Source: Anatilimnocola floriformis (GTDB lineage: Bacteria > Planctomycetota > Planctomycetia > Pirellulales > Pirellulaceae). From it: DNA of 64,000 nucleotides. Location of the stretch: assembly GCF_024256385.1 (NCBI RefSeq), contig NZ_JAMLFW010000002.1:682001-746000 (forward strand). Direction: 5' to 3'. The notes under the pieces are model-generated. The model had not been told where the DNA came from. It searched no databases and saw nothing but the letters and a program-made list of their open reading frames with translations. The translations under genes were made by a program, and so were the position numbers. Below, one piece after another: positions 4,038 through 15,594 of the stretch. The stretch's first letter is position 1, and the number at the start of each line of letters is the position of its first letter.

Positions 4038-5531
4038 TTACGTCTTCGACCAGTCGCGCCGTTGACGGCTGCTGGGGATCGACATTTTTTGGCGGTACTT
4101 GGTGACCGTGCGGCGGGCGACTTCGAGGCCGAGCTTTTTCAGTTCGTGAACGATGTCGTCATCGCTCAGCGGGCTCGACTTGTCCTCCTTGTCGATGATT
4201 TCCTGCAAGCGAATGCGGATGATGTCCCACGCCACATCTTCGCCGTCGTCCGATTGCGTGCCGCCGACGAAGAACCGCCGCAACGGATAAATGCCGCGGG
4301 GCGTTTGAATGTACTTGTCGTCAACCGCCCGGCTGACGGTGGTGACGTGCACCTTTACTTTGTCGGCGATCTGCTGCATCTTGAGCGGATGAATGTGCTC
4401 GGGGCCTTCCTCGAGAAATTCGTTCTGATGCTCGACGATGGCTTGGGCGACCTTCATCAGCGTGTTGCGGCGTTGCTCGATCGATTCGATGAGCCACTGC
4501 GCGGCTTGCACCTTGCGCTTGATGTATTCGCGCTCTTCCGGCGTGGCTTCGCCACTGGCGAGACGCTCGCGATAGTACTTGCTGATGAAGAGCTGCGGCG
4601 TGCGACTCTCCTCAACGATCACTTTCCACTTGCCGTCTTCGCCGCGCTCGACTTCCACGTCGGGCTCGACCGAGGGCACGTGGACTTCGGCAAACTGAGC
4701 GGCCGGCTTGGGATTGAGTTTCTTCAGCTCTTCCCAGGCTTCCTTGATGCGATCGAAGCTGTAGCCCGTGGCCTTCATGATCTGCGGCATGCGGTTGTCG
4801 CGCAGATCTTCCAGGTGGTTGCTGATCAGCGTTTTTTGTTCGTCGTACAAATCGATTTCAGGCCGTAACTGTTTGAGCAAGCACTCGCGCAGATCGCGGG
4901 CCGCAATGCCCGGCGGATCAAGACTTTGCACTAGCTCGAGCGCCTTCTCGGCTAACGACAAATCTTCGGGCGGAGCATCGGCAGGGAGCAGATCGCGCAG
5001 GCTGCTACGGAGATATCCGCCGTCCTTCGCATCAAGGGCGGAGATGATTCGTTCGCACATGGTCATCGTGCGAGGATCGACATCGAGCTCACCGAGCTGA
5101 TGCATCAAATAATCTTGCAGCGATTCAGGCCGTTCGGCGACATTCGAAATCGTGTCGTGCGCGCGGTCGGAATCTTCGTCCATCCGGTTAGCGCTGCGAC
5201 GTGTTGTTTCGTCGAAATAATCCGGCACATCGCGATCGAGCTGCAACAACCGTTCGAAGTCGTCGGCGTTGTTGTGAGCTTCGTCGACAACGAGCGGCTT
5301 TTCTTCGATGCTTCGTTCGTTGGCGCCGAGGTCGGGTTCCGAAGTCGATTCTTCGGGCAACGTCGGATCGCGCTCTTGCAACTCGAGGAGTGGATTTTCC
5401 GACAGCTCTTGCTCGATCCGTTCTTGCAGCGCCTGCAACGGCAACTGCAGGATTTCCATCGACTGGATCATCCGCGGCGCAAGGATCTGCTTTTGCAGCT
5501 GCCGGGCTTCAAGACCAAAGGATAATCGCAT
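4038..5531 (-). CDS. rpoN: RNA polymerase sigma-54 factor
   Basis: The 497-residue product carries all three sigma-54 parts. The N-terminal activator-interacting region starts at residue 5 (GLEARQLQKQILAPRMIQSM), followed by an acidic region II (about 50-130). The core-binding domain covers about 140-300. The DNA-binding part contains a helix-turn-helix near IADKVKVHVTTVSRAV and the RpoN box ARRTVTKYR at residues 472-480, which contacts the -24 promoter element. It directs RNA polymerase to -24/-12 promoters and needs an AAA+ activator such as the one at 18091-19167. It lies downstream of recR on the same strand, separated by a long inverted repeat. Confidence 0.97.
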   Translation of the reverse strand: MRLSFGLEARQLQKQILAPRMIQSMEILQLPLQALQERIEQELSENPLLELQERDPTLPEESTSEPDLGANERSIEEKPLVVDEAHNNADDFERLLQLDRDVPDYFDETTRRSANRMDEDSDRAHDTISNVAERPESLQDYLMHQLGELDVDPRTMTMCERIISALDAKDGGYLRSSLRDLLPADAPPEDLSLAEKALELVQSLDPPGIAARDLRECLLKQLRPEIDLYDEQKTLISNHLEDLRDNRMPQIMKATGYSFDRIKEAWEELKKLNPKPAAQFAEVHVPSVEPDVEVERGEDGKWKVIVEESRTPQLFISKYYRERLASGEATPEEREYIKRKVQAAQWLIESIEQRRNTLMKVAQAIVEHQNEFLEEGPEHIHPLKMQQIADKVKVHVTTVSRAVDDKYIQTPRGIYPLRRFFVGGTQSDDGEDVAWDIIRIRLQEIIDKEDKSSPLSDDDIVHELKKLGLEVARRTVTKYRQKMSIPSSRQRRDWSKT

Positions 5532-6275: not shown

Positions 6276-8165
6276 TTATGGATCAGGGTTGGGAATGTCG
6301 GACGCTGAGGACTCCGGTTCCTCGGCGGCGGGCGGCGCGTCGATGACGTCGACAATCTCGGCATCAAAAACGGCGATCGCCTGCTGGACGAGCAAGTTGC
6401 GTTCCAATTCCTTAATTCGTTGCCTGCGGCGCGCTGCCGTGGGCTGTGGTTTCGCCGTCGTAGCCGCCGCTTGGGGCTCATCTGGCAATAAATCGAATTC
6501 CACACGAATTTGGCGACCGGCGACTTCAGCCAGCGTTTGTTCCAGCTTCTGCCGCCGCTCGGGACGCTCTAGCTGATCCTTGAAATGACTATACGCTTTT
6601 CTAAACGACGCAACTAGTCTGTTTGGCCCGGAAATTGCTATTGCGACGACTTTGCGGGCGTAATCCGCCGTCATATCTTGAATGGCTTCAACGGCTTGCG
6701 ACCAGATCTGCTGGGCTACCGCATTTGTCCAAGGAATGTCGCTGGGGGCTTCGACTGGGGGCGAAATGTCCCGTTCAGTTACGTCGGCCGTTTTTTTTTG
6801 ATCGGCGGCGCTTGGAGGCGGATTCGGCAGTGGCTGAGCTCGGGGTTGGCTGACCGGCGGTCCCACTGACTGCGAAACGTGCGCGACTGGCGCGCTGCTT
6901 GCACTGGGCACTGGCTGCGCGAAAGCCGGAGGCGGCGGCGAATATGCCGGTCGCGACGGAACTGCGGGGACCGCAAGAGGAGCGCCACTTTGCAATTGGG
7001 CGATGAGCGCCGGCAGCGATTGCAACTGCTCGAGCCGGGCGATCCGCACGAGGGCCATTTCGACAAGCGTGCGCGTTTGTGTGCTTTGCTTCATCCGGAC
7101 GAGAGACTGATCTAGGATCTGCGCTGCAGCCAATAGAGTATCGAGTCCGAGCGCTTCGCCGAGGCGAGCCATCTCGGCGGCATCGCTGGCTTCGGTTGTC
7201 AAAAACAAATCGGGCGAACAACCGAGATGCGCCGCCATCGCGTCGCGCAAGTAACCAAGCAACTGCTCGGCCAATTGTCCCGCATCGACTCCTTCGCGAA
7301 TCGCCGTGTCGAGCAACGTCAGCGCTGTTGCCGCGTCGCGATTGGCCAGCGCGCCGGCGATCGCCGCGAGGCGTCCGGCTTGGGCCGTGCCAAGCAACCG
7401 ATGCACGTCGGCTGCGGTAAGTGCTTTGCCGCTGAACGAAAGGAGCTGTTCGAGCAGCGACTGGCTGTCGCGCATCGAACCGTTGGCGCGTCGCGCCAAG
7501 ATCTGCAGGGCCTGCGGCTCTGCCGACACGCCTTCCTGCGTGCAGATGTGGGCAAGTCGCTCGACGATGGCCTGCGATTGCAACGGCGCGAAGTCGAAGC
7601 GCTGGCAGCGCGACAGTACCGTGATCGGGATCTTGTCGGCTTCGGTGGTGCAGAAGATGAACTTCACATGCTCGGGCGGTTCCTCGAGCGTTTTCAGCAG
7701 CGCGTTGAACGCCTGCATCGTGAGCATGTGAACTTCGTCGATGATGTAGATCTTGTACCGCGCCCGGCTCGGCCGAACGTTGACGTTCGATCGCAACTGG
7801 CGGATTTCATCGATGCCGCGATTACTCGCGCCGTCGATTTCAATCACATCCACATCGCTTCCCGCCGCGATTCCCTGGCAAATGTCGCACTCGCCACAGG
7901 GCTCTGTCGTCGGACCTTTGACGCAATCGAGGGCCTTGGCGAAAATCCGCGCGGTGCTGGTTTTGCCGACTCCGCGAGCGCCGGTGAACAGATAAGCATG
8001 GCCAACGCGGTTCGTATGAATCGCCGTTCCCAGCGCCTGCGAGACCTGTGGCTGGCCGACGAGTTGCTGAAAGTCCTGCGGGCGATAGCGACGAGCAACG
8101 ACGACGTAATTGCCAGCATCGGCGGCGCTAGAGTCGCCTGCCGGATCGTCAGGAAGCAGAGCCAT
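6276..8165 (-). CDS. dnaX: DNA polymerase III subunit gamma/tau
   Basis: This 629-residue AAA+ clamp-loader subunit has Walker A at residues 62-70 (GARGVGKTS), the zinc-binding cysteines 81, 90, 93 and 96, Walker B near 140 ([10 protein letters not shown]) and the SRC sensor motif near 185 (LSRCQRFDF). Domain III runs to about 370, then a Pro/Ala/Gln-rich linker (about 385-470) leads to a tau-specific C-terminal domain of about 150 residues. The N-terminus has about 18 extra residues before the conserved [14 protein letters not shown] run of nine A bases lies in the linker at codons 456-459 (see separate entry). ffs lies upstream and recR downstream, the common bacterial order. Confidence 0.97.
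6791..6799 (-). other. A9 slippage run inside dnaX (possible gamma-form switch)
   Basis: On the coding strand the frame reads CAA AAA AAA ACG, with nine A bases, codons 456-459. Adding one A gives N-G-R-R-N then TGA; losing one A gives R-P-T then TAA. Both outcomes end the protein within a few codons right after the AAA+ part, giving about 461 residues. This is the arrangement known from Thermus thermophilus dnaX, where transcriptional slippage on A9 makes gamma. A ribosomal -1 shift as in E. coli would end at the same TGA. Confidence 0.7.
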
Positions 8166-8283: not shown

Positions 8284-8390
8284 CTGCCAGAAAGAGGCCC
8301 CCGCACAAGAGTACGTCGCTTATGGCTGCTCCAATTACGGCCTGACCAGGTTCACGCTTCCCCCTCGCGAGGGCCCCTTTCGGGCAGAGG
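8284..8390 (-). ncRNA. ffs: Signal recognition particle RNA, small bacterial (4.5S) type
   Basis: The minus strand carries the conserved SRP core: ACCTGGTCAGG, an 11-base apical part, then GCAGCCATAAGCG. The 5' arm (CTGCCCGAAAGGGGCCCTCGC) pairs with the 3' arm (GTGCGGGGGCCTCTTTCTGGCAG is split here as GTGCGGGGGCCT and CTTTCTGGCAG) over about 20 positions, giving a hairpin of about 104 bases. The apical loop reads CCGTAATTGGA rather than the common TCCGGAAGGAA, of equal length. The RNA binds Ffh to target nascent membrane proteins. The place just upstream of dnaX is common for ffs. Exact ends are not fixed. Confidence 0.88.
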
Positions 8391-8523: not shown

Positions 8524-11500
8524 CTAGGACAACCGCCGCACCATCGATCGCCGCGGGGTCGACGCTGCGCTCGCGTCGCTATGATCCTGCTGCCAGGCAG
8601 ACAGAATTTGCAGCAGCGCTTGTTCGTGCAGACTTAACGGCGTGCTGGAGTCACTGGCAGCAGGATCGTGCGCGTGCAACACAACCTTGCTGCTCTCACC
8701 GCCGAAGATTTGATCGAGGGCATCGATATTGGCTGCGATGACAACTGCCGGGGCCGTGGGAGCAACATAAACAAAGTCATCGCCGCCCTGCGCGTCGATC
8801 GCCACGCCGGTCGCGGCGAAGTCGCCCAAGTGCTGATTGCCGACGCGGACGCGAAGCCGGCCATCGGGCAAGTGACCTACGATGATCCGATCGTTCGCCG
8901 CGCTGCCCGTGATGAGAAGTTGCTCGCCAACCAACTGAGCGATGTTCGTCGTCACTGGAGTGGCGACCGAACGGATCGTCACACGGCCGTCGATCGGATC
9001 ATTGGCGGCGTCGGTGGGCGCGGGGATCAGCGTGAGAAAACCTTCGTTGAGTTGCGTCGACCGCTGGCGCGAGGTAGCCGCCAGATTGATCGCTGAAGCG
9101 CCGGGTCGCGCGGCTGCTTTCACCGTGGCTTGCAGTTGGGCGAGTTCTCCGCGGAAGGTCCCCTCGAGTGGTTTCAACCCGGCTAGCGACAGATCGATCC
9201 GCCCGGCCAGTGGATTGATGTGCGACGACAGCAGCCAGCCGCGGCTGGCAACCAACTTGCCAAGCGCTGCCTCGGTAATTTCAAGAACCGACGGATCGTA
9301 GTAAATGACCAGATCCGCCGAAGCCAAGCCGTTGCCGGTCAGATTCACAATACTATCGATATCGACCGGAATGATGAGCGATTCGCCCGGTGATGCGACG
9401 AGGTTCTGCGGAATGCTTAGCTTCGGATCGGGCCCGCCCTGCAAGAACGAACCGGTCGGCAGCGGCGTGGGAACCTCGGCCACAGGAATAGAAACGGCGA
9501 GCTGCAACATTAGCGACACATCTTGCGAGGTGATGTCGCCGTTGCCAGTGATATCGCCAAGGATCAAGGGGTCGAGCAATTTGAATTGTTCCAAGCCGCT
9601 ATCGATGCCGACGGAAAGGCGCGCGAGGTACGACGCATCCTGACCGGTGTAATCGCCGTTGCCGCTCACATCGGCAAAGTACGCAACCAGTTGCACGCCA
9701 TCGTCATCAATCGCAGCCACCGCGCCGGCGTTGAGCGAGATGTTCGCAATGTCGAGCACTTGCTTCGTTCGATAGGGAGCCGTCGCCGGCACATCGGCTT
9801 GCAGATCTACAAACCGAGTTGTCCCTGCCGTGAGCGGCGTGGGGCTGTTGAACTGAATCAGCGCGATGCCCGCCGTGGTCGTATCGAGATTCACCGTCGC
9901 ACCAACAGGCAAACCCGGAGCAACCGTGGCAGCGGAAATATTGAGGAGCGTGGGATCGTAATGCACTTCAAATGTCGCCGAGGTGATCCCACCGCCGTTG
10001 CTGAACGAGAGCGGAATGCCGGTCGTGCCGCTCGCTGGCAGATTCACCGGCTGACCCGGACCGCGTGAAAAATTCGGCACAGTGATCGTCACTGCGCTCG
10101 CCGGAGCGGCAGCCACCGTGACGCCGTACACAAAGTCGCCGCCGGCCAGGCCGTCACCATCGCCATCAAGCAACTCTCCAGTCGCGTCATGAAAACCGTT
10201 TGCCGCACTCCGCAGCGTCAGCGTGTAATTATCCGCTGGCAATCGACCCGTTGTCGAAACAAACGTCAGCCGCTGCAAACCAGGATCGACCACAAGTGAA
10301 CCACGAATCACGCCGCTACTCGCCCCTTGAATCACCACATCGGCAGCACCAAAGCGATTCCCTTGCACGTCGTACAGATTGAGTACACTCGGATCGATGG
10401 GCTGGCTCAAGTGCACCACGCCGCCGGTTGTCGTCGGCAGAAACGCCAACACCTGCAGCGACTGCGGCGGCGAAACATCGATCGTGAACGTCTGCGTTTC
10501 GCTCGTGTCGACACCGCCGAGCGCAGTTCCACCGTTATCGTGCAACCGCAGGGTGACCGTTGCCGAGCCGTACTGCCCCAGTGCCGGAGTGAACGTTAGC
10601 GTCCCATTGGCTGCCATGGCTGGCAGTACAGAGAACAATTCAGGCTTCGTGTTTCCCGTGATCTGAAAATCGACCACCTGCGCACTCTCATTGGCGCCCG
10701 GCGAAATCGACGTAGCCCAACCCGGCCGCGTTTGCGCAAACGCACTTGTCACGCTGATGTCGGATCCTTTGACAAAGCTCGGTGCATCATTGACGGCGGC
10801 GACTGTGATGGTGAACTTCGTCGCATTCGTACTATCGTCGAGCGTGCCGAACACGCCATCGAGTCCGGCATCGCGCACGGTGACATCAATGGTCGACGTG
10901 CCATTCCGATTCGGTTCGGGCGTGAACGTTAACGTTCCGGTCGTGGCTGGCGATGCGTAGCTAATCGCCGGATTGGCAATCAGCGTGGTATTGTTCGAAG
11001 TCGCCGTTACTTGCAGCGCCTGCGGCGTGATGCCTCCCGACGTGATGCCACTCAAGTTGATCGTCGTAGCCGCGGCATCCTCATTCACCGTTTGATCGGC
11101 GAGGATATTGATCGTCGGTCTGTTATTGATGGTGATTTCGACATCGTTGCCATCACCGCCGACATAACTGATCGTGGCTGCCATGCCCGAAGTCAAGAAG
11201 TTACCCGTGATTGCAGCGCCTTCGGGCAATACGGTTCCCACGGGCAATGAGCTGCCGAAGCCCGCTGTGAAGAAACCATCAATGGGGTCATTGCCATCGT
11301 TTTGCATCAGGATGTATTTGCCGGAAGCAGAAATCGCGAAGCCAGTGCTCCTGATCAGGTCCAAACGCGGATAAACGCCCGCCGAACCAAGCGTAATACT
11401 GCCGTTGACGGTCAGCGAGGTGTTGGTGCCTGCGGCAAAAGACGAAGTCAATTTGGCTCCTCCGTTGATCGCCAGTGCAGGCAATCCTGGCCGATTGATT

Positions 11501-14500
11501 GTCAGCGTTGCATCGAGCGCACCGCCGGAGTTCACGGTCAGCTGATGGTGAATGGTGCCGCTGCCATAGAGCGATGCCGTTGCTTCGACGGTGGTGGGGC
11601 TTTTGATCGAACCGTTGATTTGCAGGTAGCCTTCGCGTACGGTCGTCGGCCCATCATAAAGATTGATACCGTTCAGAACGACGGCAGAGCCTCCCGTCTT
11701 CTGCAAACCATACGCAAAATTCCCGTCGTCAATGACGCCTCCCACGATAATGGTCCCCATTGGACCACCCATGCTGGCGTCGCCTTCAAGCGTGATCGGT
11801 CCATTGAACCTCATCGCGCCCGTGATTGAATTCACGCTCAGCGCCGCATCGGTCAGATAACCCATACCGCTCAGTCGCAAAGGCTCCGACGCAATCGCGA
11901 CGGAAGTGTTATTCAATCGCAACGAACCACCAGGGAGCACGCGTGTGTAAGCGGTAGAAGACCCTAGCGAGGTGCTGAGCTGAGCGACCAGCACTCCCCC
12001 TTCAATTCGTGTGACGGTCTTCAAATCGCTAAGACCACTGATGAGCAGCGTGCTGCCGCCGCGCTTCACGATTTCGAACAAGCCAAGGTTGTAGCTGTTG
12101 ATGTCGCCCAAATAGGACTTGAGATCATAGGTCCCCGTTTCGCCAGCGATAGTTAGCCGCGGCAACGTCCCTCCTTCGTCCCCCAGATAGCTGGCGATCC
12201 TGCTGCCAAGGTCGCCAGCAATGCTGTACACCGTGTCCTGATAGTTGAACGCCAGACCCAGCGTGGCATTCTGCCCAAGATACAAAGAGGTGGTGTCGCT
12301 GATCGAATTCGACGCCATCAGTTGAAACACGCCTGAAACCAGGAAAGCCACTCCACCAGCCGATATCCCGAGAGAGCCCGTCGTCATCGAATAGGTTGAA
12401 GTGAAATAGACCGAACCAGCCGTCTGTGCATTGAAATAGCTGGCGAGAACCGAGATGGGCGCCGCCTGGCTGCCGATGTTGCCGCTCTCTGCCAAAACCG
12501 TGACTGTGTTGGCAGACAGCCCACCGTTCCCCACAATCGCTCCTGTTCCTGTCACGCTGGCGGTCAATAAGGATGTGTTACTTTGGGTCGCCTGCAGGTT
12601 GAATCCAAATCCGTTCAAGCCAAAGTTCTTGTTCGTTCCGGGCGACAATTTGATGTTGGCTTTGGAATTGTTCGTATTTGTGACGGTGGCGCCCAGCGTA
12701 ATGTCGCCGGAATTGCTATCGCCAATTTGGAACGTGCCTGTCGAGACCGCACTCAATTCAGCCGGCCAAATTCCCAACCACTGATCGGGCGAGTCGGCGA
12801 CACCAAGGTTAATGCGAAACCCGGGAGTGAGCGGCCTGACGACGACCATGCCGGTCTGGCCGGTAGAAATGTTGTTGTTGGTATTCAAGCTCATCGAATC
12901 GGCAATCAATTCGATTCCCACCGGAACGTTGGCCGAACCCAAGACACCGCCCGACGCGATAGCGATGCCGAAGTTGCTAGTCGATTTCGTGGCGACGCTT
13001 CCAGTCACTCGTACTGTGTTGAATAAGGATTGCGCATAGCCTGTGAACTCAACGCCCATGGAGCCGGATGTTCCAGCGCCACCGGTTCCGTTAAGCATGA
13101 GCAAGCCCCTAGTCGACATGCCGCCGAGCAGAATTCCGCTGTTGCCAGATGTGAAGCTGCCCGCACCGCCGCCGGTGCCGGTAATGGTGATTGTCCCCGT
13201 CAATGCAGTGACATTGGCAGCAGACAAACGCACGCCGACATTGCGCTGGCCAGATAAGGTGCCGGTTTGATTGCCGCCCGTGCCTGTAATGCTGATCGAC
13301 GCGTTGCTCACCGCGACAACAGCGCCGCCCGACACACTCACTCCCTCGTTCGTGCCGCTTGCCGAACCCACACCGCCACCCCAGCCTCGCAGCACGATAT
13401 CACCGCCGCTGGAAGTAACTACTCCCGCGTTGTAGATGCCGGTGTTATCTGATGTCGTCGCCGCTGCGTTGGTCGCTCCCCAACCTTCGACTGTCACACC
13501 AGCCAGTCCTCCGGCAGTGATCGTCGCGTTGTTCGTGAGCACAACTCCCCGCGATGATCGCCCCGCGGAACCCGCTCCCGCCATTCCTTGCACCAGCACC
13601 GGCCCGCCCCCGGAAGTGACCTTGGCCTGGCTGTTGATCAACACGCCCTCACCGGCTCCGCTGGCCACCGCAGCTCCATTGCCAACAACGGTCACACTGC
13701 CGGTTCCCCCCGCAGTGATTTCGGCTTGCGAATTTAGATACACGCCCGCGTTGCTGATCGAAGTGCTGCGACCACCGCCGGTGCCCGCTACCGAAACCGC
13801 GCCGCCCCCTGAAGTGATGCGCGAGCCGGAATCGGACAGGTACACGCCGTAGTTAGTGTTGCCCGAGTTGCTGTCGAGATAGTCTCCCTTGCCCATGACG
13901 GTGGTAGTTCCCAATCCGCCGGCTGCAATCGTTCCGCCCCCTGTGACCCACACGCCAAAGTTATTGGCAGTCGCCGCGCCGCCGCCACCGCGACCTTCGA
14001 CGCGCACTTTGCCACCCGCCGAAGCAATACGTGCGAGCGGGCCATTCAAAGCCACACCTACCTTGGTTGGAGCCTCGGCATTGCCCCCCACACCCAGGAC
14101 ATTCACATCGCCGCTGCCACTCGCCGCAATCTCGCCTCCCATCGACAAGATCACGCCGTGATAACCATTACCACCATTACCAGTGACGGTGAGCGAACCA
14201 TCAACCGAACTAATCCGCGAACCGATGCTTTCCACGCGCACGCCATCGTTGGTGCTGCCGGCTTGGGTTGTCATGCCGCCGCCCGTGCCGTTGATGGTTA
14301 CCGCGCCGCTGCCGCCGGTAATCGAGCCACCGGCATTGACCATCACACCCACGTTGTAGCCGCTGCCAGTCGATGTTCGACCACCACCCAAACCCGTGAC
14401 ATTCAGCGTGCCGGTCGCGGCTGCAATGCGGGCATTGGCCCCTATCACCAGCACACCGTAATTGAAACTGCTAAATGGCTGCTCGCCTCCCTTGCCGTAA

Positions 14501-15594
14501 ATGGACACGTTCCCGCGCCCTGTCGATTGCAACACCGCGTTGCCGGCCAGCGACACACCGGCCCCAATCGAATTTCCGCCAGTCGTTTCATTGGCAGACA
14601 GCAGCAGATTGCCGTCGACCGTGCTGAGCCCAGACGCCGTCAAAAATTCAATCTGCGACAGTGTGGTCAGACTTGCACTCCCGCTGCCATCGAGGGCCAG
14701 CTTGATTCCATTTTCGAAGCGAATCCGGTTCTTGGCGAAACCACTCAAATTGCGATCGGTGGCAAAAGTTGTCCCGCCGTTGAAGGTAATCGTTTGCAGC
14801 AGATCGCCACTCGCTCCCAAAGTTAGGTTCGCGCCGAATTGCGGCAGCGTACCGACCGTCAGCGCATCTCCCGTCACGTTGGGATCGATGGCCAAGGTGG
14901 TGCTCGGGCTGCGAAATGTCGTGGAGACAAAGGTCGCACTAACCGAATTCAACACCAACAGATTATTGTCATCATCGCCATCGTCCTTGAGTTCCAGCGA
15001 GTTCGCGCCCGTTGGCATCTTGAACGTCGAGGTTGTCGCCGTGCCGGTATTTGTCAGCGACTCGAGCGCGGTGTAACTCACCGCGCCGAAGTTCTCCAGC
15101 TGAACGCTTCCTCCCTCGGCGCTGGTGTAATCGTAGAGAGCCGCGCCTTGATCGCCGCCGAACAAAAGCAAGCTGTCGTTCTCTGCCGACTCGCCCGCGT
15201 CGTAGCTCAGTCCCAAATTCGGCACCACGTCGCCGCTGGCCAGGTCAAGCGTCAACGTATCGCCGCCACCGCCGAGATTAACCGCCAAGTTATTGAACAG
15301 ACTCGCCGGCGCGCGCAGCGTGAGATCGCCATTTTCGAGCGACATGCCAGCTGGCGCAGGCGTGATGAATTGCTCGGCCGCATCGGTGATCAAGAAATCG
15401 TTGCCGTCACGAACGATCGTTAGCGCGTTGTTCACGCCCAGTGCCGATGCATCCGAGATGGTCAGCACACCAGCGAGATTGAACGCGCTGAGCGTGGCCA
15501 GCATCTGCCGTTGCTCAAGCTCTTCCAGGCGAATGCGCCGTCGTCGCTGCGCAGCAGCCGGCCGCTTCCAAAGACGGGAGAATGATAAGGACAT
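8524..15594 (-). CDS. Giant surface/adhesin-like protein with repeats, cohesin- and dockerin-like parts
   Basis: This 2356-residue protein starts with a basic segment and LEELEQRQMLA (residues 23-33), the planctomycete LEPR-type export/anchor motif. Residues about 330-880 hold about a dozen degenerate glycine-rich repeats of about 40-45 residues (pattern GVxVxxGxxIxxGGGxVxVxGxGGG), which suggest a long beta-helix. An autotransporter-associated beta-strand repeat follows (GGVIDDGNFAYGLQKTGG region). Cadherin-like repeats include VNEDAAATTINL and VAAVNDAPSF. Near the C-terminus a cohesin-like domain (about 1835-1965), a dockerin-like pair (DVSGNGDYTGQDASYLARL and DITGNGDITSQDVSLMLQL) and a second cohesin-like domain (about 2050-2220) follow each other. 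It is probably exported and used in adhesion or matrix assembly. No C-terminal barrel is obvious. Confidence 0.85.
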   Translation of the reverse strand: MSLSFSRLWKRPAAAQRRRRIRLEELEQRQMLATLSAFNLAGVLTISDASALGVNNALTIVRDGNDFLITDAAEQFITPAPAGMSLENGDLTLRAPASLFNNLAVNLGGGGDTLTLDLASGDVVPNLGLSYDAGESAENDSLLLFGGDQGAALYDYTSAEGGSVQLENFGAVSYTALESLTNTGTATTSTFKMPTGANSLELKDDGDDDNNLLVLNSVSATFVSTTFRSPSTTLAIDPNVTGDALTVGTLPQFGANLTLGASGDLLQTITFNGGTTFATDRNLSGFAKNRIRFENGIKLALDGSGSASLTTLSQIEFLTASGLSTVDGNLLLSANETTGGNSIGAGVSLAGNAVLQSTGRGNVSIYGKGGEQPFSSFNYGVLVIGANARIAAATGTLNVTGLGGGRTSTGSGYNVGVMVNAGGSITGGSGAVTINGTGGGMTTQAGSTNDGVRVESIGSRISSVDGSLTVTGNGGNGYHGVILSMGGEIAASGSGDVNVLGVGGNAEAPTKVGVALNGPLARIASAGGKVRVEGRGGGGAATANNFGVWVTGGGTIAAGGLGTTTVMGKGDYLDSNSGNTNYGVYLSDSGSRITSGGGAVSVAGTGGGRSTSISNAGVYLNSQAEITAGGTGSVTVVGNGAAVASGAGEGVLINSQAKVTSGGGPVLVQGMAGAGSAGRSSRGVVLTNNATITAGGLAGVTVEGWGATNAAATTSDNTGIYNAGVVTSSGGDIVLRGWGGGVGSASGTNEGVSVSGGAVVAVSNASISITGTGGNQTGTLSGQRNVGVRLSAANVTALTGTITITGTGGGAGSFTSGNSGILLGGMSTRGLLMLNGTGGAGTSGSMGVEFTGYAQSLFNTVRVTGSVATKSTSNFGIAIASGGVLGSANVPVGIELIADSMSLNTNNNISTGQTGMVVVRPLTPGFRINLGVADSPDQWLGIWPAELSAVSTGTFQIGDSNSGDITLGATVTNTNNSKANIKLSPGTNKNFGLNGFGFNLQATQSNTSLLTASVTGTGAIVGNGGLSANTVTVLAESGNIGSQAAPISVLASYFNAQTAGSVYFTSTYSMTTGSLGISAGGVAFLVSGVFQLMASNSISDTTSLYLGQNATLGLAFNYQDTVYSIAGDLGSRIASYLGDEGGTLPRLTIAGETGTYDLKSYLGDINSYNLGLFEIVKRGGSTLLISGLSDLKTVTRIEGGVLVAQLSTSLGSSTAYTRVLPGGSLRLNNTSVAIASEPLRLSGMGYLTDAALSVNSITGAMRFNGPITLEGDASMGGPMGTIIVGGVIDDGNFAYGLQKTGGSAVVLNGINLYDGPTTVREGYLQINGSIKSPTTVEATASLYGSGTIHHQLTVNSGGALDATLTINRPGLPALAINGGAKLTSSFAAGTNTSLTVNGSITLGSAGVYPRLDLIRSTGFAISASGKYILMQNDGNDPIDGFFTAGFGSSLPVGTVLPEGAAITGNFLTSGMAATISYVGGDGNDVEITINNRPTINILADQTVNEDAAATTINLSGITSGGITPQALQVTATSNNTTLIANPAISYASPATTGTLTFTPEPNRNGTSTIDVTVRDAGLDGVFGTLDDSTNATKFTITVAAVNDAPSFVKGSDISVTSAFAQTRPGWATSISPGANESAQVVDFQITGNTKPELFSVLPAMAANGTLTFTPALGQYGSATVTLRLHDNGGTALGGVDTSETQTFTIDVSPPQSLQVLAFLPTTTGGVVHLSQPIDPSVLNLYDVQGNRFGAADVVIQGASSGVIRGSLVVDPGLQRLTFVSTTGRLPADNYTLTLRSAANGFHDATGELLDGDGDGLAGGDFVYGVTVAAAPASAVTITVPNFSRGPGQPVNLPASGTTGIPLSFSNGGGITSATFEVHYDPTLLNISAATVAPGLPVGATVNLDTTTAGIALIQFNSPTPLTAGTTRFVDLQADVPATAPYRTKQVLDIANISLNAGAVAAIDDDGVQLVAYFADVSGNGDYTGQDASYLARLSVGIDSGLEQFKLLDPLILGDITGNGDITSQDVSLMLQLAVSIPVAEVPTPLPTGSFLQGGPDPKLSIPQNLVASPGESLIIPVDIDSIVNLTGNGLASADLVIYYDPSVLEITEAALGKLVASRGWLLSSHINPLAGRIDLSLAGLKPLEGTFRGELAQLQATVKAAARPGASAINLAATSRQRSTQLNEGFLTLIPAPTDAANDPIDGRVTIRSVATPVTTNIAQLVGEQLLITGSAANDRIIVGHLPDGRLRVRVGNQHLGDFAATGVAIDAQGGDDFVYVAPTAPAVVIAANIDALDQIFGGESSKVVLHAHDPAASDSSTPLSLHEQALLQILSAWQQDHSDASAASTPRRSMVRRLS
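12955..14610 (-). repeat. Degenerate in-frame tandem repeats of the giant surface protein
   Basis: About a dozen coding repeats of about 120-140 bases encode glycine-rich beta-helix turns (residues about 330-880). Copies keep the pattern of a G-V pair, a hydrophobic turn, a Gly-Gly-Gly turn and a V-x-V strand, but the DNA copies have diverged. That points to old amplification under selection for protein shape, not recent duplication. Confidence 0.75.

Follow-up and report, generated by a model that had tools for sequence, protein, structure and literature searches.

The run of nine A residues (A9) in the dnaX coding strand of Anatilimnocola floriformis is very likely a programmed transcriptional slippage site similar to that of Thermus dnaX, and one that most sampled members of the class Planctomycetia retain. 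The initial annotation of this DNA had suggested that the A9 run allows dnaX to produce both tau and gamma. The sequence comparisons presented here support that interpretation, and we conclude that the original observation was right and understated. Throughout, "the window" refers to the whole 64,000-nucleotide stretch of A. floriformis DNA that was analyzed. Its features relevant to the site are as follows.

6276-8165, minus strand: dnaX, DNA polymerase III subunit tau (gamma/tau), 629 codons plus stop (TIGR02397, Pfam)
6336-6725, minus strand: C-terminal folded domain, predicted to be absent from gamma, codons 481-610 (AlphaFold2)
6741-6923, minus strand: linker predicted to be disordered, containing the run, codons 415-475, pLDDT below 50 (AlphaFold2)
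6775-6777, minus strand: TGA that would close the product when one A is gained, 463 amino acids
6779-6781, minus strand: TAA that would close the product when one A is lost, 461 amino acids
6791-6799, minus strand: candidate A9 slippage site, codons 456-459, CAA AAA AAA ACG, phase 1
6981-8093, minus strand: folded clamp-loader part, domains I-III, predicted to be kept in gamma, codons ca. 25-395 (AlphaFold2, Foldseek)
8287-8381, minus strand: bacterial small SRP RNA, just upstream of dnaX (RF00169, 50.5 bits)

The dnaX gene was identified by its match to the NCBIfam model TIGR02397 (dnaX_nterm; 441.8 bits, cut-off 250) and by matches to the Pfam clamp-loader domains, with the domain III match ending at residue 388. 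Its best matches by sequence among solved structures are the E. coli tau/gamma chains. The gene order is SRP RNA, dnaX, recR, and a gene at 4038-5531, which we take from its sequence to be sigma-54-like. The gap between dnaX and recR is 23 bases, and there is therefore no ybaB gene between them. Upstream of the SRP RNA, an open reading frame of 2356 amino acids (8524-15594, minus strand) contains repeated segments that, by eye, resemble those of surface proteins.

The plus strand contains nine T residues at positions 6791-6799, so that the coding strand of dnaX carries A9 at 72% of the gene length, where the codons read GAT CAA AAA AAA ACG GCC. The placement of the run at codons 456-459 by the initial annotation was confirmed from the letters. 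Its further statement, that the run lies right after the AAA+ part, has to be corrected, as the run is located ca. 70 residues past clamp-loader domain III, in the predicted disordered linker. A single A9 in a 64-kb window is unremarkable (shuffled sequences are expected to contain 0.82). The whole genome (8.93 Mb, both strands) contains only 10 A9 sites, versus ca. 114 obtained by merely extrapolating the window shuffle rate. Inspection of open reading frames showed that two of the other nine sites (L037 and L038) are at most 10 codons from the end of a long sense open reading frame; the remainder, apart from dnaX and L041, are outside long open reading frames, antisense, or in short doubtful ones. 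Site L041 (G000:C3:22439-22447) falls at codon 188 within an open reading frame of 690 codons, in the sense orientation, and is a possible second slippage site of the same genome.

Translation of the window dnaX gives a tau protein of 629 amino acids (67.5 kDa) in the zero frame, which runs on through A9; the two-ORF layout of the Chlorobium type is absent from this gene. The gain of one A would produce a protein ending in QKKNGRRN (463 amino acids, 49.2 kDa), and the loss of one A a protein ending in QKKRPT (461 amino acids, 49.0 kDa). The stops are located 5 (gain, TGA) and 3 (loss, TAA) codons past the run. In an AlphaFold2 model built on 29 DnaX sequences (mean pLDDT 82.7, pTM 0.56), the run is located in the predicted disordered linker, and the first folded part matches E. 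coli clamp loader subunits in a Foldseek search. According to this model, the slippage product would retain the loader and drop the C-terminal domain. Judging solely by where it lies in the gene, we take the latter to be the polymerase- (alpha-) binding domain of tau; a comparison of the C-terminal part with PDB sequences returned three matches, none of them related (best E-value 0.12).

The conservation of the run was followed in a non-random sample of relatives, with dnaX loci taken from the best scores of a protein search together with 160 further hand-picked loci. The class is represented by 197 genomes, of which five in which the linker is cut by a contig end (L044, L046, L047, L048, and L049, the last of which has the run) were dropped. 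Linker codons 385-480 contain a run of A9-A11 in 162 of the 192 sampled Planctomycetia genomes with a complete linker. Thus, the disappearance of the run from close relatives, which the initial annotation had named as evidence against its proposal, is the opposite of what was seen. A9 is also kept, at the same place and in the same phase, in the only further representative of the genus that was compared, whose DnaX is 76% identical; GATCAAAAAAAAACG is unbroken there, and the surrounding linker has gained gaps and substitutions. Sorted by kinship, the run is present in 81 of 92 genomes of the same family, 41 of 50 from other families of the order, and 40 of 51 from other families of the class (a split that still counts the contig-end locus L047 as a miss). 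When one genome per 75%-identity cluster was retained, 95 of 115 had the run.

In other classes of the phylum, at least nine A's were found in the dnaX linker of 6 out of 63 genomes (with L142, whose locus is cut by a contig end, additionally left out). Restricting the comparison to loci with a GC content of at least 0.5 gave 149 of 178 class genomes with the run versus 2 of 47 in other classes. Named records with the run include Aporhodopirellula aestuarii (A10), Gemmata sp. (A9), and an uncultured Schlesneria (A10). Among the matches listed, 9 of the 11 named records taken as class members have it (the two without are L242 and L244), and at least nine A's (codons 370-500) were present in 5 of the 66 remaining named records whose linker is complete, which come mostly from other phyla and from which three incomplete records were dropped. 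GC-rich loci with a run occur outside the class in L361 (GC 0.69, A10), L276 (Verrucomicrobia, GC 0.60, A9), and L271 (Phycisphaerae, GC 0.65, A10), and possibly have independent origins. Within the class, dnaX genes of genus g123 (L132, L133, L164, L165, L167, and L169) have two tandem runs of A9/A10 that are separated by a few codons.

The 30 class genomes without the run include all those sampled from family f91 and from certain genera; in these genomes, therefore, gamma would be dispensable or made otherwise. A check of 30 run-less loci (28 from the survey, including contig-end locus L047, plus L242 and L244) for other homopolymers revealed short A, C, G, and T runs but nothing consistent.

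The lengths of the runs are sharply limited. Maximal A runs in the 197 linkers were distributed as follows: A4, 114; A5, 39; A6, 10; A7, 5; A8, 3; A9, 97; A10, 72; A11, 2; none was longer. The remainder of the same dnaX genes (313 kb) has no run of nine or more, and the flanks (336 kb, both strands) have one. Codon phases 0, 1, and 2 are represented by 17, 84, and 70 of the A9-A11 runs, respectively. On a FastTree phylogeny of 198 DnaX N-terminal parts (linker excluded, six rows from other classes), at least 28 changes of phase, 34 of length, and 24 of presence are required, with the starred branches forcing 14 of the presence changes; many forks of this tree are weak and the counts are rough. 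Since all three phases occur and the phase has changed at least 28 times, it is the nucleotide run and not the peptide that is kept. Synonymous recoding with each gene's own codon usage (200 simulations) produced A9 in a mean of 17.4 of 189 linkers (largest value, 26), while 159 of 189 linkers contain it. In 35 class genomes, the number of nine-A windows per genome ranged from 2 to 90 (median 13, fewer than 10 in 14 genomes), and in 6.6 Mb of sequence from one relative there are two nine-A sites, of which dnaX holds one. RNA polymerase should slip on T runs too, but no T run of seven or more was found in the 197 dnaX linkers; that phenylalanine is disfavored in a disordered linker could explain this lack.

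Early stops are enriched in both shifted frames. In the gain frame, a stop is encountered after a median of 2 codons across the class, and within 10 codons in 150 of 159 genomes (24.6% at control positions of the same genes); in the loss frame, the median is 4 codons, and 137 of 159 genomes have a stop within 10 codons (29.0% at control positions). In 141 of the 163 run-bearing genomes, a set that includes L049, neither shifted frame stays open beyond 20 codons. The effect persists in a set thinned to 75%-identity clusters, where a stop within 10 codons is present in 87 of 93 (gain) and 79 of 93 (loss) genomes. For slippage that can go either way, such an excess of stops in the two frames is required.

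Tau is in frame in the window and in 158 other run-bearing genomes. In the other 4 of the 163 (L043, L045, L051, and L052), the arrangement is inverted: the zero frame ends 0-4 codons past the run and a shifted frame is open for 197-279 codons, so that gamma is read in the zero frame and a shift is required for tau. A tblastn search of the inverted loci located the C-terminal domain in L043, L045, and L052; no hit was obtained in L051, where the shifted frame is still open. The genome closest to L052 in the tree, L096, has A10 with tau in frame, and the normal and inverted states are therefore separated by one base. Homopolymer assembly errors could also account for the inverted arrangement.

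The A9 run is about as long as the RNA:DNA hybrid of RNA polymerase. We propose that when RNA polymerase copies the run, the transcript would realign, and some mRNAs would gain or lose A's. Messages with 9 or 9+3n A's would be translated into tau (629 amino acids), and the others would run into a stop 3-5 codons further on, yielding gamma (461-463 amino acids), which would retain the clamp-loading ATPase and lack the C-terminal domain. Selection would maintain 9-10 A's and near stops in both shifted frames across most of the class. We infer that slippage takes place, that RNA polymerase and not the ribosome is its agent, and that the cell produces and uses gamma. Slippage of the polymerase is our proposed explanation for the sharp 9-10 length limit, the indifference to phase, and the stops in both frames, and these sequence features appear to fit it better than ribosomal frameshifting. 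Counted against it are the 30 genomes without the run, the lack of T runs, the fact that the rarity of A9 does not extend to all genomes, and the scattered runs outside the class. The replisome tau/gamma ratio in most Planctomycetia is probably set by RNA polymerase through an old slippage cassette that drifts in phase, has been lost repeatedly, and can be inverted.

The strongest alternative, that gamma is made by ribosomal -1 programmed frameshifting at A_AAA_AAA or A_AAA_AAG, as in E. coli, appears unlikely. Because any A9 contains an in-frame A_AAA_AAA heptamer, whatever its phase, codon phase alone fails to discriminate between ribosome and polymerase, and the minimum run length per phase was therefore used. 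Seven A's would suffice for the ribosome in phase 2, yet phase-2 runs comprise 69 cases of A9 or A10, one A7, and no A8. The 197 class genomes do contain 30 in-frame A_AAA_AAG heptamers, a motif that passages of PMC5009743 describe as far more shift-prone in E. coli than A_AAA_AAA, and all 30 are within runs of at least nine A's; outside such runs, only three in-frame A_AAA_AAR heptamers were found, none of them A_AAA_AAG. In the window, the heptamer is A_AAA_AAA followed by AC, and not A_AAA_AAG. That stops are nearest in the -1 frame (median 2 codons) agrees with ribosomal shifting, but the early stops in the +1 frame are unnecessary for it and yet are present.

Stimulatory elements were also sought. 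In 163 genomes, no excess of upstream Shine-Dalgarno sequences was observed (mean match 1.94 versus 2.07 in control windows). The 60 bases past the run fold no better than shuffled sequences in the window (z +0.54), and no consistent hairpin was found in the 163 genomes (mean z -0.42, with 15 below -2), as judged by the folding energies of structures other than pseudoknots. Compared with four other codons used as controls (mean z -0.12 to -0.22; 8-14 of 191-197 below -2), folding past the run was marginally stronger, a point in favor of the ribosome. Since heptamers sit inside every A9 run, the ribosome may contribute a share alongside polymerase slippage.

Sliding of the ribosome on poly(A), which would also yield truncated products, is very improbable. 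Passages of PMC4363877 describe sliding that ends at out-of-frame stops after AAA codons, and it should, by inference, be independent of phase, both of which suit the loci studied here; but a robust truncated product is described there for A11 and little for A9 or A10, while 169 of the 171 runs here are A9 or A10. Equally improbable is a lysine-rich linker without a recoding role, in which the A run is a by-product of protein sequence: A9 does encode Lys-Lys in a fast-evolving linker predicted to be disordered, but synonymous recoding would yield A9 in 17 of the 189 linkers and 159 contain it, the phase shifts while the run persists, and early stops are present in both shifted frames. DNA-slippage phase variation (an on/off switch) was set aside by argument, as it would shut off tau.

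Few cases are known from experiment in which programmed transcriptional slippage gives two proteins from one cellular gene, and Thermus dnaX, with a gamma of 454 and a tau of 529 amino acids, is the classic one. An essential replication gene of most sampled Planctomycetia appears, judging by sequence, to use the same device at loci that are mostly above 50% GC. If so, few cases in which cells exploit transcriptional slippage would be conserved as widely, and the individual lineages would serve as natural experiments on the run lengths that RNA polymerase tolerates. The sharp 9-10 limit combined with free phase makes a clean case, from the comparison of genomes, for slippage by the polymerase rather than shifting by the ribosome. 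The retention of the run in most lineages, and its lack in several, bears on why bacteria keep gamma.

The known dnaX systems differ in how gamma is obtained. In E. coli, according to passages of PMC3711429, a -1 shift occurs at A_AAA_AAG, flanked by a Shine-Dalgarno-like sequence on the upstream side and a hairpin on the downstream side. Shared with E. coli are the proposed production of tau and gamma from one gene and an A-rich site between the clamp-loader and tau-specific parts; unlike E. coli, the window has A_AAA_AAA followed by AC and no hairpin, and the class has no Shine-Dalgarno excess. The survey of Antonov 2013 (PMC3711429), in the passages that concern dnaX, included two planctomycete genomes, with a dnaX cluster made up of genes across two adjacent ORFs; two-ORF dnaX genes are described in Chlorobium, Chloroherpeton, and others, and a poly-A of 7-10 in 12 of 17 dnaX genes, with nine A10 species. 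The Chlorobium-type layout resembles the inverted loci L043, L045, L051, and L052, whereas in the window tau is in frame. No report of dnaX slippage in planctomycetes was found among the titles and abstract openings of open-licence literature, and a planctomycete may be one of the A10 species of Antonov 2013.

In Thermus thermophilus, transcriptional slippage at dnaX was shown by experiment (Larsen 2000, as described in passages of PMC1088944, PMC5009743, and PMC4320859). Like Thermus dnaX as described there, the window gene carries A9 in its coding strand, encodes tau in the zero frame, and has near stops in both other frames. Thermus gamma is made from mRNAs with an altered number of A's, and the same origin is proposed here from sequence. 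The initial annotation placed the two runs at almost the same position; this holds for the residue number but not for the share of the gene, as the Thermus run is described as lying seven-eighths through the gene and the window run is at 72%. The stops are two and sixteen codons off in the Thermus descriptions and 3 and 5 codons off in the window. On these sequence features, we file the window site, as a candidate, with the Thermus kind.
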